Shown here: in pieces, positions 1 to 22,808 of the stretch
How the letters are laid out: every line of letters starts with the position of its first letter
Position numbering within the stretch: the stretch's first letter is position 1
Source of the DNA: a virus
Virus record (IMG/VR): IMGVR_UViG_3300023184_002232
Coordinates: 1 to 30,788 of that record
Reading direction: 5' to 3' (one strand)
DNA: 30,788 nt
Made by a program: the position numbers and the translations under genes
The notes under the pieces: generated by a model
Seen by the model: only the letters and a program-made list of their open reading frames with translations
Database searches by the model: none
Told to the model about the DNA's origin: nothing

Positions 1-2795
1 TAGCAGAACCCATAGTAAATGCCACATTATCTGGCACACTTACATAACTCGTAGTCCCATTAAAGTAGGCTGACGCACCATATGTTGCGGCGCTATATGC
101 TGCTGTGAGGCTAGTGAAACCAAACGGGTTTACGGTCCTTGGTTTAACATTATCAAAAGCTGTTAAGGCAAAATTATTGGTTGAGTTGTCTACAAAGGTT
201 GGGCTTTGCAGGGTTAACAAGCTGGTAGCTGTACCTGTAACGGCTGCAATGTTTGTACCCGCAGCCTGTGTGGCTGTTAGTGGTGCTGTGGGCGGTGTGA
301 ATGTGCCAGTGTAAACGGCTACACCTTTTACAATACGCACATTACTGATATAACCCAAGAAGTCATTAACAGTAGTACCATACTGTCTACCAATATACGT
401 TACAGCAGCAGCATAATTTCTAGTGTCAGCAACAGATGCCTCTTGCGCACCATTAATAAACAATTTAGTGGTGCCAGAAATTCTTACTGCTGCTACATGA
501 ACCCACTGGTTTACTGCTAATGCATTTGTACTAGTCAACCAAACACTTGTGCCATCAAATATGTTTAAATTACCGTTACCTGTTATAAAGAACAGTATGC
601 GAGTGCCTGCACCGGCCTCACTATCAACAATACCTCTTTGAACACCAGTGTCTGTTCTGTAAATCCAACATTCAACAGTAAAGTCGCCTGTACCAAACCC
701 CAATACAGCATTGCTAGGCACAGTTAAGTAATCACCTGTACCATCAAAGTAAGCACTGTGCGTGATTGCTGTTTGTGTCTGTGGGCTGAATGGTGAAAAC
801 CGTTGAACGATTGGTGTACCAATTAAGGAAGTTATAGCAAATGCGTTAACGCTATTATCTACAAAACCATTACTTTGACAAGTTAATAAACTTGTGGCTG
901 AACCGGTAATAGCACTAATATTTGTACCACTAGCCTGTACTGCTGTTAAGGGTGCTGTGGGTACTGTAAAGTTACCGGTATAAACTGCGGTACCTTTAAC
1001 AGCACGAAAATTAGATATGTAGCCCGTAAATGCGTAACTACTACCACCATAATCGCCAATTCTCAAACTAGTGCTAGTTTCATTTGCACCTGAACTTACT
1101 GTCGCACACGATATACCATTAATATACATTGTAATTACGCCACTATTTCTAACTATTGCTAAATGATACCATGAACCAACTGTTAGTCCCAATCCTGCTG
1201 TAGTAGAAGTTAATTCAGTTGCACCATTATTATAGTAAAATCTAACATAATTATTGTACACTTGTACACGGGTACCGTTACTTGCTTGATCAAATAAGTA
1301 ACCATTACTAGCAGAATAACTTACGCTGGGATTATACCACATTTCTATTGTATAATTTCCCGTACCCCAAATAAATGCGCTATTAGCACTAGGACTAATT
1401 GAAGAATTACTATTGCCAAAGTAGTTTGACCAGTTAGCACCATACGGGCTACTAGTGCCAGCACTGGTATTACCTGCACGAGTAACAGCAAAGGTATTAG
1501 TACTTGAGTCTAGGAACATGCTGTTGCTGGCTGGCTGATTTGTTTGCAGGGTTAACAGACTGGTTCCGGTTATGGCAGTTAGTGGTGCTGTGGGCGGGGT
1601 GAATGCTGAGGTGTAGACTGCTGTACCTTTGACAATACGAGCATTGCTAATGTAGCCATTTGTATACTCAAAATTACCCGCACCATTTCTACCTATAGCT
1701 ACAGTTTGGGCAGAATCAGTCATTGCTAATGCCGCCATATTAAGATCGATGCCTTTAACCCCGTCAACATACACATTAACTGTTGCACCATTGCGAACAC
1801 CAGCAACGTGATACCATCTGCCAACTGTTGGTGCTGTAGCAAAAGTAGAGAAATACATAACTCCAGCATAACCAATTCCTGTGCTAAACTGTGTCGAGCT
1901 GTTTATACCAAGTGTAAAACTCATGGAGGCAGCACTACCTGCAGCATCACAAGTTCCTATAAAAATTTGTTGGGCCGTACTATTTAAGTATACCCAGCAC
2001 TCTAGTGTATAATTTCCAGAACCCATAGTAAATGCCACATTATCTGGCACAGTTACATAACTCGTAGTCCCATTAAAGTATGTGCTGCCGTATGCAGCAT
2101 ACTGAGTGTTGGGTACGAATGGGGTTGAGGAACTAATCTTGGTATTGTCGTAGGCTGTTATGGTAAATGCGTTTGAGCTGTTATCAATAAATCTATTACT
2201 TTGGCAGGTTAACAAACTGGTGTTTGCGATTGCAGTTAGTGGTGCTGTAGGAGGGGTGAAGTTGCTGGTGTAGACTGCGGTTCCGTTGACAACACGTAAA
2301 TTAGAAATATACCCTGTATAGTAATAAAGCCCACTATAAGCTAGTGAATACCCAATGGTACTAACTCCGGCAGTACCCCAAGTACCTGCAAAAGCAGTTG
2401 AATTGGATAAAGCACCATTAATATAAAAATACATTGTTCCTGCAGAACGTACAAACGCAACATGTGTCCATGTGTTTAAAGTAACAGTAGCAGAACTAGA
2501 AATACTTACACCAGAATAAAAGGCATTTAATGCACCATCAGCAATACATAGATAAGAAGTACCATTTCCTAATAATATTCTATAACTGCTATTTGCAGTC
2601 ATGTAAACCCAACATTCAACAGTAAAGTCGCCTGTGCTAAAAGAAGATGAAGAACTGCTAGGCACAGTTAGGTAATCGCCAGTACCATCAAAGTAGTTGC
2701 TGTAGTATCCTGGCGTAAAGGGATTAAAATTGTTGGGCCGGGTATCGCCTGCAATGGCGAGTGCAAAATTATTTGTGCTGGCGTCTGTTATGAAT
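1..2795 (-). repeat. Tandem LamG-like modules, about 660 nt each
   Basis: At least four full modules and one partial module repeat inside the adhesin gene, roughly 2795-2196, 2195-1520, 1519-865, 864-193 and 192-1. The boundaries are marked by the recurring linker that encodes LLTCQS..DNS..F. A stretch at 4-69 matches 2017-2082 with one mismatch in 66 bases, in the same reading frame. A second shared segment occurs at ~665 and ~2609. Confidence 0.85.
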
Positions 2796-3742
2796 GTTTC
2801 TGTGCTGGCACTACCACTCAGCAGCAGTGTGTTGTACATTACATACTGATCTGTAGCTACACTCACGGTCCAGGTAATGGTAGCAGTGGCAGTTCTACCA
2901 GTAGTGGCTGCTGTAGCTGTAAATGTAGTAGCTGTAACAGCTGCTACTGTAGGTGTTCCAGTAACTGCGGATCCCACAATACTTAATCCGGCGGGTAGTG
3001 CAGTTGAAGTGTATGAAATGGTTTTACCAGCAGCACTGGTTGCTGTTAGTGCAGTGCTTGAAGCTGTGTTCTGCTCTAGCGTAACGCTTGTGTTAGCCAT
3101 AGTCACAACATCAGTGTTTATGGTTAAACTAAAGCTGGCAGAGGTACTGTCTTGCAGTTGAGCATCAGTTGCCTTTATGGTAAATGTATATGTTGTATTA
3201 CTTGCCGTAGCTGAAGCTGTACCAGTTAGTTCACCTGTACTGCTATTTAACACTGCACCGGCTGGCAGTGTGCCACTGGCTAGTGTGTAGACTATGGGCG
3301 CGTCTCCACCTGTAGTTACCAACACACCAGTTGCAATACTGTTGGTTTCGTATGTGCTAGCAGGACTAATTGCTGTAGTTGTCCAAACGGGTGTGCCACT
3401 GTATACCAGGCCAGGAATGTAGATTGCAGTGCCACCATCTGGGTTTAATACGTAGATGGCATATGTAGCTGCAGTTTTTGCAGGAGCCGTAAATGTCAGG
3501 GTATTTGCGTTAACGTATGCAGTAGTAACAGCACTACCGCCCAGTGTAATGATGGCACCTGATATAAAACCAGTACCGTTTATTTGTACGGTTTGCCCAC
3601 CCGCTATGTCTACAGCTGTATCATCCACAATAGCTGACGCAATAAGTATGTTGATGCTGTTGATAACAGGCGCTAGTGGAATACTTGCATTAATTACACT
3701 AGTTCTAGTAACTGTGTCATTTTTAACTGAAACTATGCTCAT
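1..3742 (-). CDS. Giant Ig-like/LamG-repeat tail adhesin, 3' end outside window
   Basis: The frame stays open from the ATG at 3742 to base 1, so at least 1,247 codons are present and the C-terminus is missing. The start overlaps the stop of the preceding gene (ATGA, 3739-3742), and upstream Shine-Dalgarno (SD) complementarity is weak, suggesting translational coupling. An IPT/TIG-like domain lies at residues ~25-110 (VQINGTGF, AIYVLNPDGG). Two putative Ig-like domains of the He_PIG type follow at ~110-205 and ~206-300 (GTLPAGAVLNSSTGELTGTA; ALPAGLSIVGSAVTGTP). Concanavalin A/LamG-like modules of ~220 aa then repeat, each with YFDGTGDYLTVP, DFTVECWVY, a YINGA-type strand and YISNLRVVNGTAVYT. 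They are joined by a TPPTAPLTA...SLLTCQSN..DNS linker. LamG folds usually bind carbohydrate, so a receptor-binding fibre is likely; that role is inferred. No intramolecular chaperone or peptidase is visible in the part present. Confidence 0.88.
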   Translation of the reverse strand, partial: MSIVSVKNDTVTRTSVINASIPLAPVINSINILIASAIVDDTAVDIAGGQTVQINGTGFISGAIITLGGSAVTTAYVNANTLTFTAPAKTAATYAIYVLNPDGGTAIYIPGLVYSGTPVWTTTAISPASTYETNSIATGVLVTTGGDAPIVYTLASGTLPAGAVLNSSTGELTGTASATASNTTYTFTIKATDAQLQDSTSASFSLTINTDVVTMANTSVTLEQNTASSTALTATSAAGKTISYTSTALPAGLSIVGSAVTGTPTVAAVTATTFTATAATTGRTATATITWTVSVATDQYVMYNTLLLSGSASTETFITDASTNNFALAIAGDTRPNNFNPFTPGYYSNYFDGTGDYLTVPSSSSSSFSTGDFTVECWVYMTANSSYRILLGNGTSYLCIADGALNAFYSGVSISSSATVTLNTWTHVAFVRSAGTMYFYINGALSNSTAFAGTWGTAGVSTIGYSLAYSGLYYYTGYISNLRVVNGTAVYTSNFTPPTAPLTAIANTSLLTCQSNRFIDNSSNAFTITAYDNTKISSSTPFVPNTQYAAYGSTYFNGTTSYVTVPDNVAFTMGSGNYTLECWVYLNSTAQQIFIGTCDAAGSAASMSFTLGINSSTQFSTGIGYAGVMYFSTFATAPTVGRWYHVAGVRNGATVNVYVDGVKGIDLNMAALAMTDSAQTVAIGRNGAGNFEYTNGYISNARIVKGTAVYTSAFTPPTAPLTAITGTSLLTLQTNQPASNSMFLDSSTNTFAVTRAGNTSAGTSSPYGANWSNYFGNSNSSISPSANSAFIWGTGNYTIEMWYNPSVSYSASNGYLFDQASNGTRVQVYNNYVRFYYNNGATELTSTTAGLGLTVGSWYHLAIVRNSGVITMYINGISCATVSSGANETSTSLRIGDYGGSSYAFTGYISNFRAVKGTAVYTGNFTVPTAPLTAVQASGTNISAITGSATSLLTCQSNGFVDNSVNAFAITSLIGTPIVQRFSPFSPQTQTAITHSAYFDGTGDYLTVPSNAVLGFGTGDFTVECWIYRTDTGVQRGIVDSEAGAGTRILFFITGNGNLNIFDGTSVWLTSTNALAVNQWVHVAAVRISGTTKLFINGAQEASVADTRNYAAAVTYIGRQYGTTVNDFLGYISNVRIVKGVAVYTGTFTPPTAPLTATQAAGTNIAAVTGTATSLLTLQSPTFVDNSTNNFALTAFDNVKPRTVNPFGFTSLTAAYSAATYGASAYFNGTTSYVSVPDNVAFTMGSA

Positions 3743-4071
3743 GATATTTCTGAGCCAAACAGGTTAAAACTCACCGTTGTGGTACTGGCTGTTACAGTGA
3801 TTACGTCAGTTGTAGCAAGTGTAATACCAATAGTCATGGTAATGCTGTCATTGGCATTTATGTTGGTATTAAATGCTAGATAGTGTTTAGCAATTTCAGC
3901 AGCTCCAGCAGGTCTTACTGAGATCTTAAATGTTGCTGCTGCTGCTGCCTGATTACATACCACAATGGTACTGCACACTGCTGATGTAGCTGCAGGTACG
4001 GTGTACAGTGTTATTGGTGTAGCTGCGGTTGCCAATACTGTTTGACCTAAAACTTTGTATGCAGTTGCCAT
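3739..4071 (-). CDS. Small conserved phage structural protein (110 aa)
   Basis: A 110-aa beta-rich protein beginning MATAYKVLGQ and ending SFNLFGSEIS. The pattern YKVLGQ, LYTVPAAT, VCNQ, FKISVRPAGA and KHYLAFN resembles a small family of phage virion proteins encoded beside tail-fibre genes. I recognise it from memory and know of no defined biochemical role. It shares a 4-bp ATGA overlap with the giant adhesin downstream, so the two products are probably made in a coupled fashion, and a role in adhesin attachment or assembly is plausible. A GGGAG element lies ~10 nt before the ATG. The gap to the preceding gene is only 6 nt. No membrane segment or signal peptide is seen. Confidence 0.85.
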   Translation of the reverse strand: MATAYKVLGQTVLATAATPITLYTVPAATSAVCSTIVVCNQAAAAATFKISVRPAGAAEIAKHYLAFNTNINANDSITMTIGITLATTDVITVTASTTTVSFNLFGSEIS

Positions 4072-4650: not shown

Positions 4651-6375
4651 CTAGAAGGTAATTGAACCGTTGCCAGTAAATCGATATACACGGTACGTGG
4701 TGCTAATAACGCTTATATCAGGACTACCTGTAGTAGCTGAAGCTGTTATGCTATAGGGTACTCTGATAATGACAACGCCTGAGCCGCCTGCAAAACCGCC
4801 AAGGCTATAATCAGCATTGGCACCTCCACCACCGCCAGTATTTGCAGTGCCAGCAGTGCTCTCGTTACCACCGCCACCTAGACCACCTACAGAGGCTGTA
4901 TTTCTTGACCAGCCAGCACCACCACCTGCATAGTATGTAAGTGAACCAGTAAGAATACTAGATTGAACACCTACGCCACCTGCACCTGTAGTTCCACTAC
5001 CACCTGATCCAACACCACCTGCACCGCCACCGCCGCCAGCAATATTGAGACTTGGATCACCTGCACCACCGGCATATCCTTGTACTGGGCTGGTTACAGG
5101 AGAGGATATACCTCCAGCAGTTGATCCAAAAATGCCGTCACCATAGTAACCTCCACCACCACCTGAACCACCATTGCCACCAACCATGGTTCCACTGCTA
5201 GAGCCTGTTCCTCCATAGCCACCGCCAGTGGCTGTAATTGTGCTAAAAACTGAATCCTGACCTACGTTACCCCTAGTATTTACAGCACCACCAGTTCCGC
5301 CTGATCCAACTGTTACAGAATAATTTGTTGCAGGTAGTAGAGTTAGTGATCCTGTTCTATAACCTCCAGCACCGCCACCACCACCACTACTGCCTCCGGC
5401 ACCACCACCACCAGCAACTACCAGGTATTCTGTACTTACTAGTGAACTGATCAAATAAAAGGTTACTGTGCCTGTACCAGCTGTAAATGTATAGATGAGG
5501 TAGTCGCCTGAACTAGTTGAGGAACTTGTTAGTCCTGCTGAAACAACAGCAGTGTAGGTATTGGGTATTTTAAGTACAACAACGCCTGAACCACCCGCAG
5601 CACCTGCACCTACATCAGTATTACCACCACCGCCACCGCCACCGCCTGTATTAACACTACCCGCAACTGCGGCTGTTGTTGGGTAAATCTGTCCAGCACC
5701 TCCGCCACCTGTTCCTCCTGCAGCACCAGCACCGTTACCGCTACCACCTCCACCGCCAGCATAGTATGTTGCAGTGCCAGATATACTTGACTGTAATCCC
5801 GCACCTCCAGTACCCAGATTAGCAGACTGACCTACTGCGCCAGCGCCACCACCACCAGCACCTGCGTACGGGGCAGCATTTGCAGAACTGCTAGTATTTC
5901 CACCGGCAAATCCTTGTCCTGCAATAGCAGTGCCACCAGTAGATGCTCCAGTCCAAGCACCGGCTCCTCCTCCCGAACCACCGCTAGTTGCCGCATTGCC
6001 TGGATATGCGCCTCCGCCTCCTCCGCCTGTGGACGTAATAGTACTGAATACAGAATTAGCACCACTACCCCCCGTACCTCGACCCGTACCAGCAGCACCT
6101 CCAGCACCAACAGTTACTGTTAATGCAGTACTAGGCACTAACACAAAACCACTGGCAGTTAGCAATCCACCTGCTCCACCACCACCTGCGTTGCAGCCAC
6201 CACCGCCACCACCACCAGCAACTACCAGATATTCCAGTACTGGAATATATCCAGGCCACAGGTTAGCAGTAGCACCCTGCATTTGTTCATTGGTGCGCCA
6301 TAGGCCAGCAGCAGCCGCAGTACTGATTGCTGCTGCCGTTGCTGATAGTATGGAGCCACGATATCTGGTAGACAT
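4651..6375 (-). CDS. Tail protein with two glycine-rich adhesin domains (574 aa)
   Basis: A short N-terminal head (RYRGSILSATAAAIS, LWRTNEQMQ, LWPGY; residues 1-45) resembles a leader found on many phage Gly-rich tail proteins. Two tandem Gly-rich domains follow, at ~46-310 and ~312-560. Each opens with EYLVVAGGGG and closes with GGSGVV(V/I)-type strands (GGSGVVVLKIPNTY; GGSGVVIIRVPYS) and a tail that ends YTFTAGTGTVTF or YRFTGNGSITF. Runs such as GGGGGGG and YYAGGG suggest a polyglycine-II-like sandwich, as known for the gp38 adhesin of T4-like phage S16. That structural parallel is inference. Its start overlaps the preceding stop as TAATG, pointing to coupled translation. Likely role: distal adhesin or receptor-contact protein of the tail. 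Confidence 0.86.
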   Translation of the reverse strand: MSTRYRGSILSATAAAISTAAAAGLWRTNEQMQGATANLWPGYIPVLEYLVVAGGGGGGGCNAGGGGAGGLLTASGFVLVPSTALTVTVGAGGAAGTGRGTGGSGANSVFSTITSTGGGGGGAYPGNAATSGGSGGGAGAWTGASTGGTAIAGQGFAGGNTSSSANAAPYAGAGGGGAGAVGQSANLGTGGAGLQSSISGTATYYAGGGGGSGNGAGAAGGTGGGGAGQIYPTTAAVAGSVNTGGGGGGGGNTDVGAGAAGGSGVVVLKIPNTYTAVVSAGLTSSSTSSGDYLIYTFTAGTGTVTFYLISSLVSTEYLVVAGGGGAGGSSGGGGGAGGYRTGSLTLLPATNYSVTVGSGGTGGAVNTRGNVGQDSVFSTITATGGGYGGTGSSSGTMVGGNGGSGGGGGYYGDGIFGSTAGGISSPVTSPVQGYAGGAGDPSLNIAGGGGGAGGVGSGGSGTTGAGGVGVQSSILTGSLTYYAGGGAGWSRNTASVGGLGGGGNESTAGTANTGGGGGANADYSLGGFAGGSGVVIIRVPYSITASATTGSPDISVISTTYRVYRFTGNGSITF

Positions 6376-7178
6376 TAGGTTATTGCCTCATAGCTTGCGG
6401 TTAGTTCAACGGCACTTGCAGTGCCCACAGTTACAGTAACAGACTGAGCTTCACCCAAGTAGAAACTGGTGCTCTTGTCAACCACAATTACTGCTGCATT
6501 AGCTGGTACTGGCAGTTGATAAACTAATCTGTAGTTAGTGCCTGAGCCAGTTGCAGCGCTGTTAATAGCTACCGTAACTGTTGCTGCTGTGCCTGTTACA
6601 TTAGCTGCAACAATATTGTCAATTTTATGAATTGTGCCTGCAGCAGGAGTAAGTGTGGTCCAAACTGCATTAGCTAAACTAATGGCAGTAGATGCAACAG
6701 TTTGTGTACTGCTAACAGTGTAAGTACCTGTTTGTCCAGCAGTACTTAAACTTAGTGTGCCACTTACTGCACCAGTAGTAACATTACTAATTGTTATGGT
6801 ACTTGTTGTGGTATTGATAGCGGTTACATAGGTATTGGCTGGAATACCTGAAATAGGCTGCACAAACTGACCAACTGCAATTGCAGCAACAGTGCCTACT
6901 GTATAACTAGTTAGCGCAAGTGTGCTAGATCCTGTAGTTGCTTGCGTAGCAGTGGCAGTAACTACTGCAGTAACTGCTGTTAACTGGTTAGTAACACGTG
7001 TATTGGTTGTTATGCCTGTGCCAGTAATAAAGTGATTGATCGCAATTTTACCAGAAGCTACTGCTGTTACTGTTAAAACAGTGGTGGCAATTGAACCTGT
7101 TAGTGATGCCAATGAAGGAATCAGGTAGTCAGAGACTCCATATATAGAGGTTACGTTTATTATGTTGGGATTTGCCAT
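6375..7178 (-). CDS. Small phage structural protein carrying a nested module insertion (267 aa)
   Basis: The two ends look like one compact protein: MANPNIINVTSIYGVSDYLI at the N-terminus, and VDKSTSFYLGEAQSVTVTVG with ELTASYEAIT at the C-terminus. This pattern is familiar from short (~110-130 aa) phage virion proteins. Residues ~26-165 look inserted. They begin [17 protein letters not shown] and end GTYTVSSTQTVAS, a Thr/Val-rich beta module. Inside it, residues ~78-144 form a second unit (LALTSYTVGTVAAIAVGQ...ISGIPANTYVTAI). An AAGGTG Shine-Dalgarno lies 7 nt before the ATG, and the gene follows the 368-aa fibre by 10 nt. The product probably sits in the tail fibre or baseplate complex; the specific role is unknown. 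Confidence 0.84.
   Translation of the reverse strand: MANPNIINVTSIYGVSDYLIPSLASLTGSIATTVLTVTAVASGKIAINHFITGTGITTNTRVTNQLTAVTAVVTATATQATTGSSTLALTSYTVGTVAAIAVGQFVQPISGIPANTYVTAINTTTSTITISNVTTGAVSGTLSLSTAGQTGTYTVSSTQTVASTAISLANAVWTTLTPAAGTIHKIDNIVAANVTGTAATVTVAINSAATGSGTNYRLVYQLPVPANAAVIVVDKSTSFYLGEAQSVTVTVGTASAVELTASYEAIT
6684..7103 (-). other. Inserted beta-rich module, itself split by a second module
   Basis: Residues ~26-165 of the 267-aa protein. The outer module, [13 protein letters not shown]...GTGI...GTYTVSSTQTVAS, also occurs in the 649-aa putative hub protein at 22425-22625. Its two halves are separated here by an inner unit at ~6747-6947 (AVGQFVQPISGIPANTYVTAI). The boundaries are judged by eye. 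Confidence 0.6.
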
Positions 7179-8345: not shown

Positions 8346-10253
8346 TTAGTATGTTCCGCCGTCTACTAGATTTGAGAAGAAAGGATTGCCTGTACTGTCT
8401 GATTTTAAGAAACTGCCATCTATTGTGGCAGCAGCTGTAACACCAATAGTGCTGGTTCCATTACCAAATAGGATACCACGACTTGTAACAGTTGCTAAAC
8501 CTGTACCACCATAAACTGGAGTTAATACTGTACCATTCCATACGCCTGTAGTAAGTGTACCAACTGATGTTAAGCTACTAGCAGTAACAGTACTACCTAA
8601 TGTTGTTGAAGATAGTACTGATACATTATTGATCTTGAATACTTTACCGGTAACAATATTCCAGTCTTCACTGCTGTTCCAATTGCTGTAAGTGCTATCC
8701 CAAGTAATAGTTTTATTTGTAGTACCTTTAAGTAAGATACCACCACCATTAGCAGTTGTGTTATCTGGAGTGGCAACACTGCCTAACTCAATTAAAATAT
8801 CATCAACTGTAACTACTGTACTATTAATTGTTGTGGTAGTACCATTAACAGTTAGGTTACCACCAATTGTTATGTCACCCGTAGTGCTAAGTGTGGTAAA
8901 AGCACCAGTTGAAGCAGTTGTAGCACCTATGGGAGTGCCATTAAGACTGGTAAGACTTATACCCGTTGCACTGCCACTAATTGTAGCGGCACCTAAATTT
9001 ATAGTATTGCCGCTTAGGTATAGATCTCTAAAACGATATAGGTTACTACCTAGGTCATAGGTAATATTGGCAACTGGTAAAACATGTCCACTAACTGCCA
9101 GTGAGTTATTTATAGTAGTAGTGCCTGTGGCAGCACCTAAACTTAGGCTGGTTGCTGCACCACCAATATTTAGGGTAGTAGCTGTTGTATTAAAAGCACT
9201 AAAAGTAGTGGTTGTTGCAAGAACTGAGTCTGTAAAACTAGGACTTGTAGCAAATACACTTACACCTGTACCTGTTTTGTTTGTGAGTGCTGCAAGTAGA
9301 TTTGCGCTACTAAATGATCCTAGTACTGTGGCATTACCAGTTGAGGTTATATGCCCAGTTAAGTTAGCATTAGTAGTTACTGTACCGGCTGTAAAACCAG
9401 CTGCAGTTCCTGTAATATTTGTACCTATTAAGGCACTAGGAGTTCCTAGTGCAGGGGTTACTAGTGTGGGACTTGTGGCAAATACTAGGGCTCCAGTACC
9501 TGTTTCGTCAGTTACTGCTGCTGCTAAATTAGCTGATGTTGCAACAGCTAGAAAGCTAGCTATACCACTAGCTAAACCACTTACTCCAGTAGATACAGGA
9601 AGTCCTGTAGCATTAGTAAGTGTTGCACTACTTGGAGTTCCTAGTGCAGGGGTTACTAGTGTAGGACTTGTGGCAAATACTAGGGCTCCGGTACCTGTTT
9701 CATCTGACATTGCTGCAATTAAGTTTGCACTGCTAGGCGTACCCAGGAAAGTAGTCATATTTGCAGGAATAGAGCTCATACTACTAACTGCCCAAACACT
9801 ACTACCACTTCCATTTGATGTTAGTACATAACCATTGGTGCCAGTAGAGTTAGGAAGTGTAAATGCACCAATTTTTACTAAACCTGTACCATTAGGTGTA
9901 ATCTCAACACCACCATTAGTATCAGTGGCTGCAATAACATTGGTAACACCAGCACCACCTATTTGTAGGTTTGTGGTTTTAACAACATCAACCTTACCAC
10001 TAGCATTAACAACAATAGCAGAACTAGCAGTTAGAGTACCTGGTGTATGGTCTAGCATATCTGCAAAATACTTGCCACCAATAACATCATGTACAGATGC
10101 ATTGCCACTAGTTTCACCGCCCGTACCAATATATAATCTATCTCCTCCATTAGCATCAGTGCCTGTTAAAGACGAGTATGCTAATTCACCTACACCTAAT
10201 GTACCGGGATTACCCAGTGTAGACGATCTTTTAATCTTTATACTAGATGCCAT
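8346..10253 (-). CDS. Long repeat-containing tail fibre protein (635 aa)
   Basis: The N-terminal head (SSIKIKRSSTLGNPGTLGVG, GELAYSSLTG, DRLYIGTGGE; residues 1-60) is typical of phage fibre attachment domains. Residues ~160-340 contain repeats built from DETGTGALVFATSPTLVTP, ALGTPSSATLTNATGLP and GLASGIASFLAV. The second half carries motifs common in long fibres of aquatic phages: YDLGSNLYRFRDLYLSGN, TINLGAATISG, LTVNGTTTTINSTVVTVDD, and a VYGGTGL motif near the C-terminus. No S74 chaperone domain is present, so trimerisation would need another route. An AAGGAG Shine-Dalgarno lies ~8 nt upstream, with a 13-nt gap after the 103-aa gene. It shares a near-identical 342-bp block with the 377-aa fibre gene. 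Confidence 0.88.
   Translation of the reverse strand: MASSIKIKRSSTLGNPGTLGVGELAYSSLTGTDANGGDRLYIGTGGETSGNASVHDVIGGKYFADMLDHTPGTLTASSAIVVNASGKVDVVKTTNLQIGGAGVTNVIAATDTNGGVEITPNGTGLVKIGAFTLPNSTGTNGYVLTSNGSGSSVWAVSSMSSIPANMTTFLGTPSSANLIAAMSDETGTGALVFATSPTLVTPALGTPSSATLTNATGLPVSTGVSGLASGIASFLAVATSANLAAAVTDETGTGALVFATSPTLVTPALGTPSALIGTNITGTAAGFTAGTVTTNANLTGHITSTGNATVLGSFSSANLLAALTNKTGTGVSVFATSPSFTDSVLATTTTFSAFNTTATTLNIGGAATSLSLGAATGTTTINNSLAVSGHVLPVANITYDLGSNLYRFRDLYLSGNTINLGAATISGSATGISLTSLNGTPIGATTASTGAFTTLSTTGDITIGGNLTVNGTTTTINSTVVTVDDILIELGSVATPDNTTANGGGILLKGTTNKTITWDSTYSNWNSSEDWNIVTGKVFKINNVSVLSSTTLGSTVTASSLTSVGTLTTGVWNGTVLTPVYGGTGLATVTSRGILFGNGTSTIGVTAAATIDGSFLKSDSTGNPFFSNLVDGGTY
9301..9642 (-). 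repeat. Copy 1 of a 342-bp block shared with another fibre gene
   Basis: This block aligns without gaps to 12592-12933 (offset 3,291) with roughly 19 mismatches by hand count, about 94% identity. It encodes the GTPS..NATGLP, GLASGIASFLA and NITGTAAGFTAGTVTTNANL units in both genes. Parts of it are also repeated locally at ~9641-9710. Confidence 0.9.
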
Positions 10254-11364: not shown

Positions 11365-12126
11365 TTAGGTAAAAGTTATAGTGCCACCAGTAATCCAGGT
11401 AAATACAGTATAAGTAACACTACTCTCAGTAATTGTTGTGACTGTAGCATTAGTTTGAGTGACAGTAGTATAGGCATCTTGTCTACAACGCATAATAACA
11501 ATGCCACCAGCACCGTTACCTCCATTAGCACCACTGCCACTCCAACTAAAACTTGTGCTGCCTCCATTACCGCCGCCGCCTGCCTGGCCTTTAGCACTAC
11601 CACTAGCACCTCCACCACTACCACCTATATAAGTTCTGACAGTTCCACCACTACCACCTCCACCATAACTAACACTTGTGCCTGTAATACTGCTGCTAGT
11701 TGAGGGAGTAACACTAAAGGTACTTAAACCTGTACTGCTAGCGCCTCCACCAAAACTTCCTGTACCTAATCCACCTGCTGCAGTCAATCCTGTGTTTACG
11801 CCAAAAACTCCAGATATACTAGAACTGCCACCATCTGTACCATCTATTCTGGTAAATGGCGAGGTAGATTGCTGAGTACCAGCAAATCCTGCTATTCCCA
11901 CTTGTATTGTATAGCTAGAATTAACTTTAACTCTGTTATTAGAAATACTAACAGTTGCGCCTCTGGCGGCATTACCGCCTGCACCATTAGTGCCAGTTGT
12001 ACTATTACCTGTACCACCTTGTCCAGCACTACCTCCTCCACCACCTCCTACCACAAGTAAAGATACTTGAATTATTTTATCAGAACTTCTGAAATTTCTA
12101 AATGCAGAATGTAGTACACCAGTCAT
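11365..12126 (-). CDS. Glycine-rich tail adhesin (253 aa)
   Basis: The protein begins MTGVLHSAFRNFRSSDKI, followed by one Gly-rich domain opening [11 protein letters not shown] (residues ~30-205) and closing GAGGIVIMRCR. A Thr/Val-rich tail ends TVFTWITGGTITFT. The domain resembles those of the 574-aa protein but is more diverged and lacks the EYLVVAGG consensus. I chose the ATG at 12126, not the in-frame start at 12153, because it gives a clean ATGA overlap with the preceding fibre stop. Likely a receptor-contact protein that works with the 377-aa fibre just upstream, an arrangement that recalls gp37/gp38 pairs of T4-like phages. That parallel is inference. It is the last gene before the 20-bp-stem terminator. 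Confidence 0.84.
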   Translation of the reverse strand: MTGVLHSAFRNFRSSDKIIQVSLLVVGGGGGGSAGQGGTGNSTTGTNGAGGNAARGATVSISNNRVKVNSSYTIQVGIAGFAGTQQSTSPFTRIDGTDGGSSSISGVFGVNTGLTAAGGLGTGSFGGGASSTGLSTFSVTPSTSSSITGTSVSYGGGGSGGTVRTYIGGSGGGASGSAKGQAGGGGNGGSTSFSWSGSGANGGNGAGGIVIMRCRQDAYTTVTQTNATVTTITESSVTYTVFTWITGGTITFT

Positions 12127-13256
12127 AGTAGCCCACTTCCACCAATAATCCAATTTGTAGTTGTAATCTTAATAGCAGTCGCTGATCCATACTGAGATAA
12201 ACTAAATGAACCTGTAGCACCACTAGGGCTCAGATATAGGGTATCAGTTGCAATTGCAATTGTTACAGTTGCAGTACTCATGTTAACAAATGTAATTGTT
12301 GTGCCAAGTGGGTAGGCTACTGATGCATTTGCTGCAATTGTATATGTTCTGGCAGTTGTATCGGCTGAAGGGTGAAGTAGTACTTTACCTGAGTCTGCTA
12401 ATACTGTGGTATACGCCGCACTTTGACTGTTGACAGGAATATTTTTAAAACCCACAAGGTCTGTGCCATCAACAGTGCAAGATGACAATGTACCACTGCT
12501 AGGTGTACCCAATACAGGTGTAACTAGTGTGGGGCTTGTAGCAAATACATTTGCACCAGTGCCTGTTTCATCAGTTAGTGCTGCAAGTAGGTTTGCACTA
12601 CTAAATGATCCTAGTACTGCAGCATTACCAGTTGAGGTTATATGCCCAGTTAAATTGGCATTAGTAGTTACTGTACCAGCTGTAAAACCAGCTGCAGTTC
12701 CTGTAATATTTGTACCTATTAGGGCACTAGGAGTTCCTAGTGCGGGTGTTACTAGTGTGGGACTTGTAGCAAAGACTAGGGCTCCGGTACCTGTTTCATC
12801 TGACATTGCTGCTGCTAAATTAGCTGATGTTGCAACAGCTAGAAAGCTAGCTATACCACTAGCTAAACCACTTATTCCAGTAGCTACAGGAAGTCCTGTA
12901 GCATTAGTAAGTGTTGCACTACTTGGAGTTCCTAAATTAGGTGTAACTAGTACCGGATTTGTAGCAAATACATTTGCACCACTGCCTGTTTCATCAGTTA
13001 GTGCTGCCGCTAAATTAGCACTTGATGGAACAGCTAGAAAGCTAGCTATACCACTAGCTAAACCACTTATTCCAGTAGCTACAGGAAGTCCTGTAGCGCT
13101 AGTAAGTATTAGACTGGTTGGGGTTCCTAAATTAGGTGTAACTAGTACTCCACTAACTCTTTCTGCTTTATCTGTATTTAAATTTGTAAAATTAGCGTCT
13201 ATTTCTACATTAGTTAGTGGAGATCCTTTACTAGTACGTGATATTATTGTAGTCAT
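12123..13256 (-). CDS. Repeat-containing tail fibre protein (377 aa)
   Basis: The N-terminus TTIISRTSKGSPLTNVEIDA is followed by NFTNLNTDKAERVSG, a head seen on many phage fibres (SPLTN.E.D.NF..LN). Residues ~40-270 are repeats of LVTPNLGTPTSL, SATGLPVATGISGLASGIAS and NLAAALTDETGSGANVFAT, near-identical at DNA level to part of the 635-aa fibre. The C-terminal ~110 residues form a different domain (NIPVNSQSAAYTTVLADSGK, TYTIAANASVAYPLGTTITF, TNWIIGGSGLL), resembling a compact beta domain at the tips of phage fibres. An AGGG element lies ~7 nt before the ATG. The stop overlaps the start of the Gly-rich adhesin. Probably a trimeric side fibre. Confidence 0.88.
   Translation of the reverse strand: MTTIISRTSKGSPLTNVEIDANFTNLNTDKAERVSGVLVTPNLGTPTSLILTSATGLPVATGISGLASGIASFLAVPSSANLAAALTDETGSGANVFATNPVLVTPNLGTPSSATLTNATGLPVATGISGLASGIASFLAVATSANLAAAMSDETGTGALVFATSPTLVTPALGTPSALIGTNITGTAAGFTAGTVTTNANLTGHITSTGNAAVLGSFSSANLLAALTDETGTGANVFATSPTLVTPVLGTPSSGTLSSCTVDGTDLVGFKNIPVNSQSAAYTTVLADSGKVLLHPSADTTARTYTIAANASVAYPLGTTITFVNMSTATVTIAIATDTLYLSPSGATGSFSLSQYGSATAIKITTTNWIIGGSGLL
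12592..12933 (-). repeat. Copy 2 of the 342-bp block shared between fibre genes
   Basis: Ungapped match to 9301-9642. The two encoded stretches differ at about five residues by my reading (for example NATGLPVATGISG against NATGLPVSTGVSG). Further partial copies continue to ~13110 within this gene. Confidence 0.9.
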
Positions 13257-16362: not shown

Positions 16363-20858
<4,496 letters not shown>

Positions 20859-20859
<1 letters not shown>

Positions 20860-22808
20860 TATACTAATACCTCTACATCTATGGTTGAAGTTAGCCAATT
20901 AGGACTTAATGTTACTACTTGACCAACTGTAGCAGTTGTTAAATTAAACCTGGGATGAGTCAGTGTTACACCTTGGCCAAGTTTTAAACTTAATAGACCT
21001 GGTGTACCTGTAAATTTATATATAGTTCTGGGTATACTATATAGTGTATTTAATTCAGTTGATCGGGTTTGTGCATCTTGAGCTCGCAGTAGTAGTGTAT
21101 CTATTCTGTTTATAGAGTCTTCTGATAGTTTATAGTTATCTCTAGCTGCGGTATTTACAGTAGTTTTTGTAAGGTATTCCGTAGCAAAATTAGCTTTATC
21201 CTCTGGACGTATATCAGTTAATAAGTTTTCTTGTATATTCCAATTTTTATTATAGTTAATAGTATTAGATGCAACTACTGTAGTTCTATAAGATATAGTT
21301 AGCGACTGATCTAGTATATTGTCTTCTGTAATATTAACTACAGTATCTGTAGTTGGGGAATCTATTTTTAATAATTGTAATTTGCCCTTACGATTCATAA
21401 ATATTTGAGCACCAATACTATTAGCTAACTGTTGACATACGCTTAATACTGAACTACTATCTTGAATCAGTATTCCAACTGGTTGAGTGTTAACAGCACT
21501 AAATGCCAGTAAATTTTCTAAGTCTAGTTCACCAGCTGTTAGCTTATTCTTTCCATACTCTCTAGCAATAAGAGCAATTAAATTAGCTATATTATTGACA
21601 TAGGTACCTGTTACTAGGGCACCTGTACTTAAATTAATTGATTTTTTAACTCCTTGTGCACTCATTGTTATAGTGCCTGCAGCAGGTACAGTTGTAGTAA
21701 ATATACCTGTTGGCAAATCTACAGTGCCACCACTACTTAATATTTCAGTAGTACCATTATGCGTATATAGGGGCTTTCCATTATCACGTACTTCAATTAG
21801 TAATTCGCTGGCATCCTTACAAAACATATACTTTGCAGAACCTGCGTACTGTGGAGCTGGGTCTATTAATAACGGACTAAAGTTAAATACTTCTCCAAAT
21901 ATTATGGGCCGTATAGTATCTTGATTAGTTTGTCCAGTACCCCAAGTTCCTAGAGTTCCTACTTTAACATCAGTTAGTGCTACATTTAGTCTGTCTAGTT
22001 TATCTCTGATCTTAATATTTAGCGTATTTCTATCTACAGAATCTACGTCAGCTATTACGCCATCAAATATTTTCTCAAACCGTGTGTGTACCTCTGTGAG
22101 ATCTTGACAGATCCATGCCGGATCTCCCAGATATATCTGTATAGCTCTGTTTGCCCAAATGTACTGGGTATAGTCTAACCAAACATCTAACTCACCTGCA
22201 GAGTTATTGACAGCTATGTCACCAAAACTTATAGTGGGTTGTCCATCTATAGGTAAACTTTCTGTGAACTGTACACCTCCTGAAATAACAGGTAAATAAC
22301 TAATACTACTATCTGCCGTAACATAACCTATATTAGATAAGTATATTGGAGTTTCAGCAGTAAAATTACCTGTTCCGGTACCTGTTCCAGTTCCTGTTGC
22401 AGTAAATGAAGTTCCAACATTTGGCTGAGCCGTTATTGTTGTTGAACTTGCCGTCATGCTATTGCTTAAGTTGTATGTTCCTACACCACCTGTGCCTGTA
22501 CCAAAAGATGAAATAGTAGTGCCAGCAGTAATACCTGTGCCATTAATAGTAGCACCAACAGTTAATGCACCAGAAGTTACAGCAGTAACTGTTAGAACTG
22601 TTGTTGCTACAGAACCAGTAACTACTGCCGTTGATGATGCACCAATTGAAACAAAATTAGTTGTACCAATTGTTTTTATTATATAAGATGCACCTATAGT
22701 AAATGCACCTGCTGTTGTTAGTATAGTAGAAATATTTTTAACTGCTAATTCAATAAGAATTCCGCGTATACTATTACTATCCTCTAACCAAGACTGTGAA
22801 TAAGACAT
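20859..22808 (-). CDS. Putative tail-tip/hub protein with nested inserted modules (649 aa)
   Basis: It directly follows the tape-measure gene, the usual position of tail-tip or hub proteins. Residues ~160-649 look like a hub-type core: [134 protein letters not shown] cannot assign a Pfam family with certainty. Residues ~34-147 hold a separate module ([20 protein letters not shown] ... [18 protein letters not shown]), and a second module (~62-128, [14 protein letters not shown]) is inserted within it. A GGGAG Shine-Dalgarno lies 5 nt before the ATG, and a strong promoter ~20 nt further up. Confidence 0.8.
22368..22709 (-). other. Module-within-module insertion in the hub protein
   Basis: Outer module: [17 protein letters not shown] and [16 protein letters not shown], which in other phage proteins form one continuous unit (from memory). 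Inner module: 22425-22625, [13 protein letters not shown]...[18 protein letters not shown], similar to residues ~26-62 plus ~150-165 of the 267-aa protein. The boundaries are judged by eye. Confidence 0.6.

Follow-up and report, generated by a model that had tools for sequence, protein, structure and literature searches.

A small phage virion protein with a probable two-level domain insertion, and related nesting in other virion proteins

The 267-residue protein and its surroundings

The window analyzed here comprises a complete IMG/VR record (30,788 bases), the content of which corresponds to the tail end of a tailed phage with its genes on the minus strand. It includes a run of fibre genes and, also on the minus strand, an ORF of 2611 aa that resembles a tape measure. 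An ORF of 267 aa sits among the tail-fibre genes, and a gene encoding a glycine-rich protein adjoins it downstream. The features discussed below are listed here, the ends of the insert being precise to within a few codons.

6375..7178, minus: 267-aa ORF, made up of a virion-type protein of 123 aa and an insert of about 144 aa (relatives with and without the insert)
7104..7178, minus: host protein, N-terminal part, residues 1-25 (alignment to uninserted 123-aa relatives)
6666..7103, minus: whole insert A(B), residues ~26-171 (gap versus uninserted relatives)
6981..7100, minus: module A, N-terminal part, residues 27-66 (A N-half profile, domain E 2.4e-15)
6933..6980, minus: A-B linker, residues 67-82 (alignment with A(B) of other proteins)
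6732..6932, minus: module B nested in A, residues ~83-149 (B profile over residues 90-143, E 2e-11)
within the insert, minus: module B in the predicted model, where residues 70-146 match 9n71 in fold
6681..6731, minus: module A, C-terminal part, residues 150-166 (A C-half profile, domain E 9e-4)
6378..6665, minus: host protein, C-terminal part, residues 172-267 (alignment to uninserted relatives; the jelly-roll match spans both parts)
4651..6375, minus: next gene, 574-aa glycine-rich protein, this copy without A or B match (relatives with A or A(B))
20859..22808, minus: hub-type protein, 649 aa, phrog_8917
22371..22727, minus: hub block, residues ~28-146, absent from the 525-aa relative L321
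22428..22619, minus: uninterrupted hub module A inside the repeat-like unit E, the latter recognized by eye (phmmer, copy comparison)

Database searches with the 267-aa ORF gave neither a PHROG match nor a Pfam match above the cut-off. In a Pfam scan of this protein and the hub no Ig-like (Big_2) model matched up to E 0.1, a missing match of this kind being no proof of absence. PHROGs holds no family for the A module and none for the 123-aa host. The profiles of phrog_21413 and phrog_38233 (tail fibre) do contain module A (hub residues 46-128, E 3e-12), although these are whole-protein clusters. Against named phages, tblastn returned a single weak match for the 267-aa protein (E 0.01, Phage DSL-LC04) and none for the hub module, perhaps as a result of low-complexity masking. 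A scan of genome contigs led to 127 pattern matches and 0 relatives.

Further minus-strand genes of the record were noted. The 1511-aa fibre at 16363-20898 has a very long collagen-like stretch, matched five times by Pfam Collagen, and the fibre ORFs at 8346-10253 and 12123-13256 both contain a repeat like VFATSPTLVTPALGTPS...GTAAGFTAGTVTTNANLTGHITSTGNA, a further unit common to different genes of the record. An ORF of 1247 aa that runs off the record end (2-3742) carries repeats like FDGTGDYLTVPSS...DFTVECWVY, lectin-like by eye. The 110-aa protein encoded at 3739-4071 belongs to phrog_1276; its C half looks by eye like the 123-aa host, whose fold it may share as another small virion protein.

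The insert and its empty site

Two viral contig scans provided 140 family ORFs with a MANPN-type start (140 loci). Four of them, the 267-aa ORF and its counterparts in L001, L067 and L068, carry an insert, always at the same place, and are 267-268 aa long. The remaining 136 lack it and measure 83-140 aa, the 83-aa one (L025) being an incomplete ORF; the distinct uninserted sequences retained, of 110-145 aa, number 111. L002-L007, the closest of the uninserted relatives, have 123 aa and a best-segment identity of 79-82%, and alignment to them places the extra stretch between residue 25 and W173. The initial annotation had taken the host for a virion protein of about 125 aa and called for versions without the insert in related phages. 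Such versions are the rule in the family, so that a lack of uninserted relatives, which would have refuted the annotation, does not apply. Its span for the insert, 6684-7103, was right at the upper end and slightly too short at the other, the insert covering about 6666-7103.

To place the carriers, a host tree was built after the insert had been cut out of all four and rows more than 97% alike had been removed (117 to 108 rows). The carriers fall inside a 37-row clade (95/89) together with 33 uninserted rows. L001, L067 and L068 are grouped (96/91), and the 267-aa ORF of the record lies in the same unresolved 19-row fan. The insert label needs two changes on this tree, of which well-supported branches force only one. 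Since the carriers are placed within a clade of otherwise uninserted proteins, the insert is best read as a gain, and on the evidence of the tree it was gained once or twice in this family, the poorly supported forks near the carriers being compatible with either count. DNA identity among the four carriers is 63-79% for the host part, 68-83% for A and 65-74% for B; insert and host are thus about equally diverged, which indicates an old insertion that was inherited with the gene. The two label changes and this equal divergence, by which the insert is not recent, would also suit an ancestral insert lost by most relatives. With carriers making up only 4 of the 140 ORFs, within a clade otherwise uninserted, such a history would require many precise losses at one site, and we consider it very unlikely.

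The same comparison bears on two further explanations. Every record used is metagenomic, and a chimera of read assembly could in principle create a composite gene. However, four different contigs, whose host parts share 63-79% DNA identity, have this composite at one and the same position, which makes a chimera barely conceivable. The insert is also in frame, in a fixed place and patchily present, as would be expected of an intein or other self-mobile element. Inteins have a nucleophile at their N end and a His-Asn pair followed by a nucleophile at their C end. By contrast, this insert consists of only ~144 aa of beta sequence without cysteine and without a His-Asn end, and neither splicing nor endonuclease motifs were found in its letters. 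Its homologues, moreover, keep their place in many proteins that have no common target. We give an intein or similar element virtually no credence.

Modules A and B and their nesting in virion proteins

Within the insert the order is N part of A, linker, B, C part of A. Comparison of the A and B profiles with hhalign gave a probability of 93.4 and an E of 2.6e-7. By this profile match the two modules are homologous, and module A is consequently split by its own relative. As the initial annotation had proposed, the A module of the 267-aa protein is interrupted by a different unit, with the N- and C-half profiles of A flanking B.

To see how general this arrangement is, we ran the half profiles of A over 8,223 ORFs. 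This led to the identification of 119 N-halves with an adjoining C-half and of 43 N-halves without an adjacent one. Among the latter an orphan C-half was found 35-330 aa downstream in 12 of 43 and upstream in 0 of 43; shuffled downstream sequence gave 0.02 expected against the 12 observed. In eight of the 12 split A modules the inner unit is B (the 267-aa ORF, L001, L067, L068, L151, L152, L158 and L171), and in the other four it is a different one, D (L159, L165, L167 and L173). The split point is constant: the strand preceding it ends in ITALG or ITNQL, and GTYTV comes after it. Seven more orphan N-halves are nested by eye (L040, L127, L128, L131, L301, L312 and the 712-aa ORF of L189) and were left out of the 12/43 count. 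About 16 others are plain A modules with a divergent C end, and some orphans are cases of the N model matching B. Splitting of B on its own was seen in 0 of 163 B N-halves; the one split B relative, unit C in L040, came to light solely through the C query and inspection by eye.

These counts also speak to the possibility that A and B are tandem degenerate low-complexity repeats and that the C part of A is a chance match to GTYTVSS. T, V, A, S and G abound in the sequence, and because the two modules are homologous, repeat alignments can slip, as happened with MAFFT on L040. Against this, C-halves of A lie downstream and not upstream of the orphan N-halves, at a frequency that shuffled sequence does not approach, orthologues exist with A unsplit at the same point, and the insert of the 267-aa ORF can be aligned over its full length with A(B) segments from unrelated proteins. 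We regard a tandem-repeat origin as highly improbable and retain the parse of B nested in A.

A second copy of A in the record lies in the hub-type protein. Alignment of the hub with L321 is continuous outside residues ~28-146, and from this comparison the hub copy of A is also placed within an insertion, with unit E around A. E was recognized in the hub by eye only, from an unsplit copy in the 447-aa ORF of L001. This ORF (8769-10109, plus strand) is a fibre with A and then E between GSTIN and KTFVAGD, apparently a two-module tandem in one loop.

The hub and 267-aa copies find each other by phmmer (domain E 5.8e-7 and 4e-5), in agreement with the earlier statement that the same module recurs in the hub 15 kb away. 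Their N parts share 22 of 40 residues and 69 of 120 bases, and 9 of the 22 codons for shared residues are identical. The proposed alignment of the two modules at protein and DNA level thus gave a significant protein match and clear DNA divergence, upholding the annotation on both likeness in protein and divergence in DNA. The presence of the same module twice in one record, 15 kb apart, might suggest that the 267-aa protein received it recently from the hub of the same genome. The base and codon counts argue against such recent copying within the genome, as the annotation had also held. Furthermore, B is present in the 267-aa copy and absent from the hub copy, and the 267-aa form is common to three other contigs. 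A recent hub origin is therefore extremely unlikely; the sequences are compatible with either two arrivals or an old duplication. The annotation had in addition called the module mobile. It is indeed present inside many unrelated proteins; no transposition machinery was seen. The kinship of A and B, the insertion around the hub copy and the stepwise intermediates had escaped the annotation.

Stepwise states (empty, one module, nested) are found at the same genes. One case is the glycine-rich gene. Of the 96 followers of this kind, which include repeated contigs (L147-L150, L229), 83 have no A or B match. With repeats excluded, A occupies one site in 7 distinct loci and A(B) occupies it in 3 (L127, L128 and L131); the L168 follower has A at another site. 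In the MAFFT alignment of the glycine-rich proteins the sequence following the split was set wrongly in L127, L128 and L131, and their outer halves were consequently tested singly. For both halves the best match was the unsplit A of the same gene family in L090, with identities of 66-77% (N) and 79-83% (C). Because both halves are closest to the unsplit A of their own family, B appears to have been inserted into an A already present in this gene. The full A(B) stretch was also found in contigs L324 and L325.

A similar series is observed in head-closure proteins (phrog_578; E 2e-101 for L159, 2.7e-102 for L189 and 1.1e-61 for L165), where A is unsplit in 8 proteins and split by D at the same point in 5, the remainder of the proteins being ~62-74% identical between the two sets. 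L152, an A(B) carrier, also matches phrog_578. In the L040 fibre the B-like unit C is split by A(B), with iE values of 3.1e-16 and 5.5e-8 for its outer halves, and C is unsplit in 69 full-length matches elsewhere, in the same kind of fibre. The sequence of L040 thus supports three levels, C(A(B)), of which the predicted model leaves the outer unit unfolded; the 267-aa ORF has two levels plus the host.

Predicted folds and a proposed course of insertion

The AlphaFold2 model of the 267-aa protein, obtained from 15 alignment rows, is of middling quality (mean pLDDT 71.9, pTM 0.56), with residues 1-12 below 50 and the insert mostly at 70-90. A Foldseek search against the PDB gave no match at E 0.001 or better. 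The fold matches reported here come from a VIA second look, in which Z values of 7-8 can be common. Most matches of the model fall on the host part and only 9n71 falls on the insert. The host part matches the HFTV1 turret 8qpg_TD (Z 11.1, 105 of 114 residues aligned, spanning model residues 1-267), STIV protein 3j31 (Z 10.5) and the KHP40 cement protein 7dou_4 (Z 9.0, 108 of 124 residues). All three span both sides of the insert, and the host is accordingly predicted to be a turret- or cement-like jelly roll closing around it. In a library of predicted structures, a 457-aa glycine-rich phage protein matched the model over 162 columns with an rmsd of 2.8.

Module B of this model matches 9n71 with Z 7.9, a value that can be common in this search (67 aligned, 30% identity). 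The L040 model gave a more confident view of B. The likeness of A, B and C led MAFFT to put the L040 units in the wrong place in alignments A7, A8 and A9; alignment A10 was used for the model, which left the outer unit without relatives in the input. In the resulting model the innermost B is confident (blocks of 86-96) and the outer unit is below 50 at its ends and unfolded. This B matches residues 103-179 of the Mystique tail tube 9n71_A (Z 9.6, 69 aligned, rmsd 1.9), LKA1 tailspike 4ru4 at residues 284-369 (Z 8.7) and a Bridgette chain (8.6), as well as, in or near the range of common values, P22 coat 9pgg (Z 7.0) and F1 ATPase barrels (6-7). K1 lyase, the phi92 tailspike and the Chi tail tip were also matched. 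The top PDB sequence match of the B profile is 9n71_B, weak at E 0.3. From these matches to a tail tube, tailspikes and the P22 coat, together with the top sequence match, B looks like a small barrel that phage proteins already use as an interior add-on.

Domain insertion is common; its recursive form is known mainly from ancient enzymes in which the intermediates are gone. In the beta' subunit of cyanobacterial RNA polymerase (SI3), HABAS/barrel-sandwich domains are described as inserted recursively, nested to six levels (PMC13114784, PMC11515920). The likeness to our case is that small all-beta domains lie inside their own kind at several levels, one family both inserting and receiving. As in SI3, the outer domain A is interrupted with both parts recognizable around B, and the inserted and receiving domains are homologous. 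SI3 as described there belongs to one ancient cellular enzyme, whereas here many phage virion proteins are concerned, with empty and half-filled states among relatives and with A(B) in several unrelated proteins. The word 'virus' does not occur in the available text of PMC13114784, nor 'phage' in that of PMC11515920.

Among phage proteins, the small beta-barrel insertion domains of P22 coat, the Mystique tail tube and the LKA1 tailspike resemble B in fold and are also interior stretches. They are, however, single-level insertions, whereas the barrel seen here lies within a module homologous to it, which is itself set in a third protein. For tail tubes, too, inserted or add-on domains that occur singly are well described (PMC8718954). 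The HFTV1 (PMC12494034) turret and KHP40 cement jelly rolls are like the predicted host part in fold, with a low identity of 12-18% and no such insert. Phage mosaicism by domain shuffling, with fragments reused across unrelated proteins and tail fibres prominent, was documented by Smug et al. 2023 (PMC10684548). The mosaics in the portion available stand side by side and the word 'nested' is absent from it, in contrast to the domain within a domain found here. Our searches of the open-licence literature turned up no description of related modules nested in this way in phage virion proteins. Recursive insertion of related domains is already known from RNA polymerase; what would be new, as far as we found no report of it, is its occurrence in phage virion proteins.

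Taken with the empty site and the half-profile counts, the 267-aa ORF very probably encodes a small virion protein that has undergone domain insertion at two levels. The insertion, the nesting, the kinship of A and B, the common inner site and the intermediate states are seen in the sequences themselves, and the folds are predicted. In the course that we propose, a beta module of ~65 aa, A, would have entered the loop that follows the first strand of a ~123-aa jelly-roll protein. The ends of each module would lie close together, so that a loop could accept it without wrecking the surrounding protein. A would have received the homologous barrel B in a loop of its own, bounded by a strand that ends in ITNQL and one that begins with GTYTV, and this inner loop would then be open to further modules. 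Recombination between phages at alike stretches may spread and swap the modules. Lying outside the core folds, they would be exposed additions by which the surface of the particle is enlarged or varied while the core assembles. That they touch the host cell or steady the particle is a plausible guess at best.

Some evidence for separate change of the inner module came from codon comparisons. Between L067 and L068, codons at shared residues are identical at 21 of 61 positions in linker plus B and at 103 of 158 elsewhere (Fisher p 6e-5). Only this pair differs among the six carrier pairs, the other five giving p >= 0.38. The pattern would suit a swap restricted to the inner module as well as a higher rate of change in B. 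A further, speculative reading, which we think rather doubtful at present, is that the inner loop acts as a self-similar socket, each inserted copy bringing the site for the next, with A(B) composites travelling and inner modules being swapped separately. If true, exposed parts of head-closure, hub and fibre proteins would grow and vary by a recursive, open-ended grammar that is still active today. A general socket of this kind would also offer a natural rule for adding a small barrel to a virion protein without spoiling its assembly. Empty, one-module and nested states coexist in relatives, which makes the order, sites and cost of nesting directly testable. Discontinuous modules defeat ordinary domain searches, and this may explain many phage tail and head proteins that cannot be annotated.

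Modules were also observed in series. Two tandem B units apparently lie within A, by eye, in L300 (416-1000) and L301 (1183-1767). In L153, L155, L161, L177 and L189, two or three A modules occur in tandem in other proteins, indicating that the module grows side by side too.
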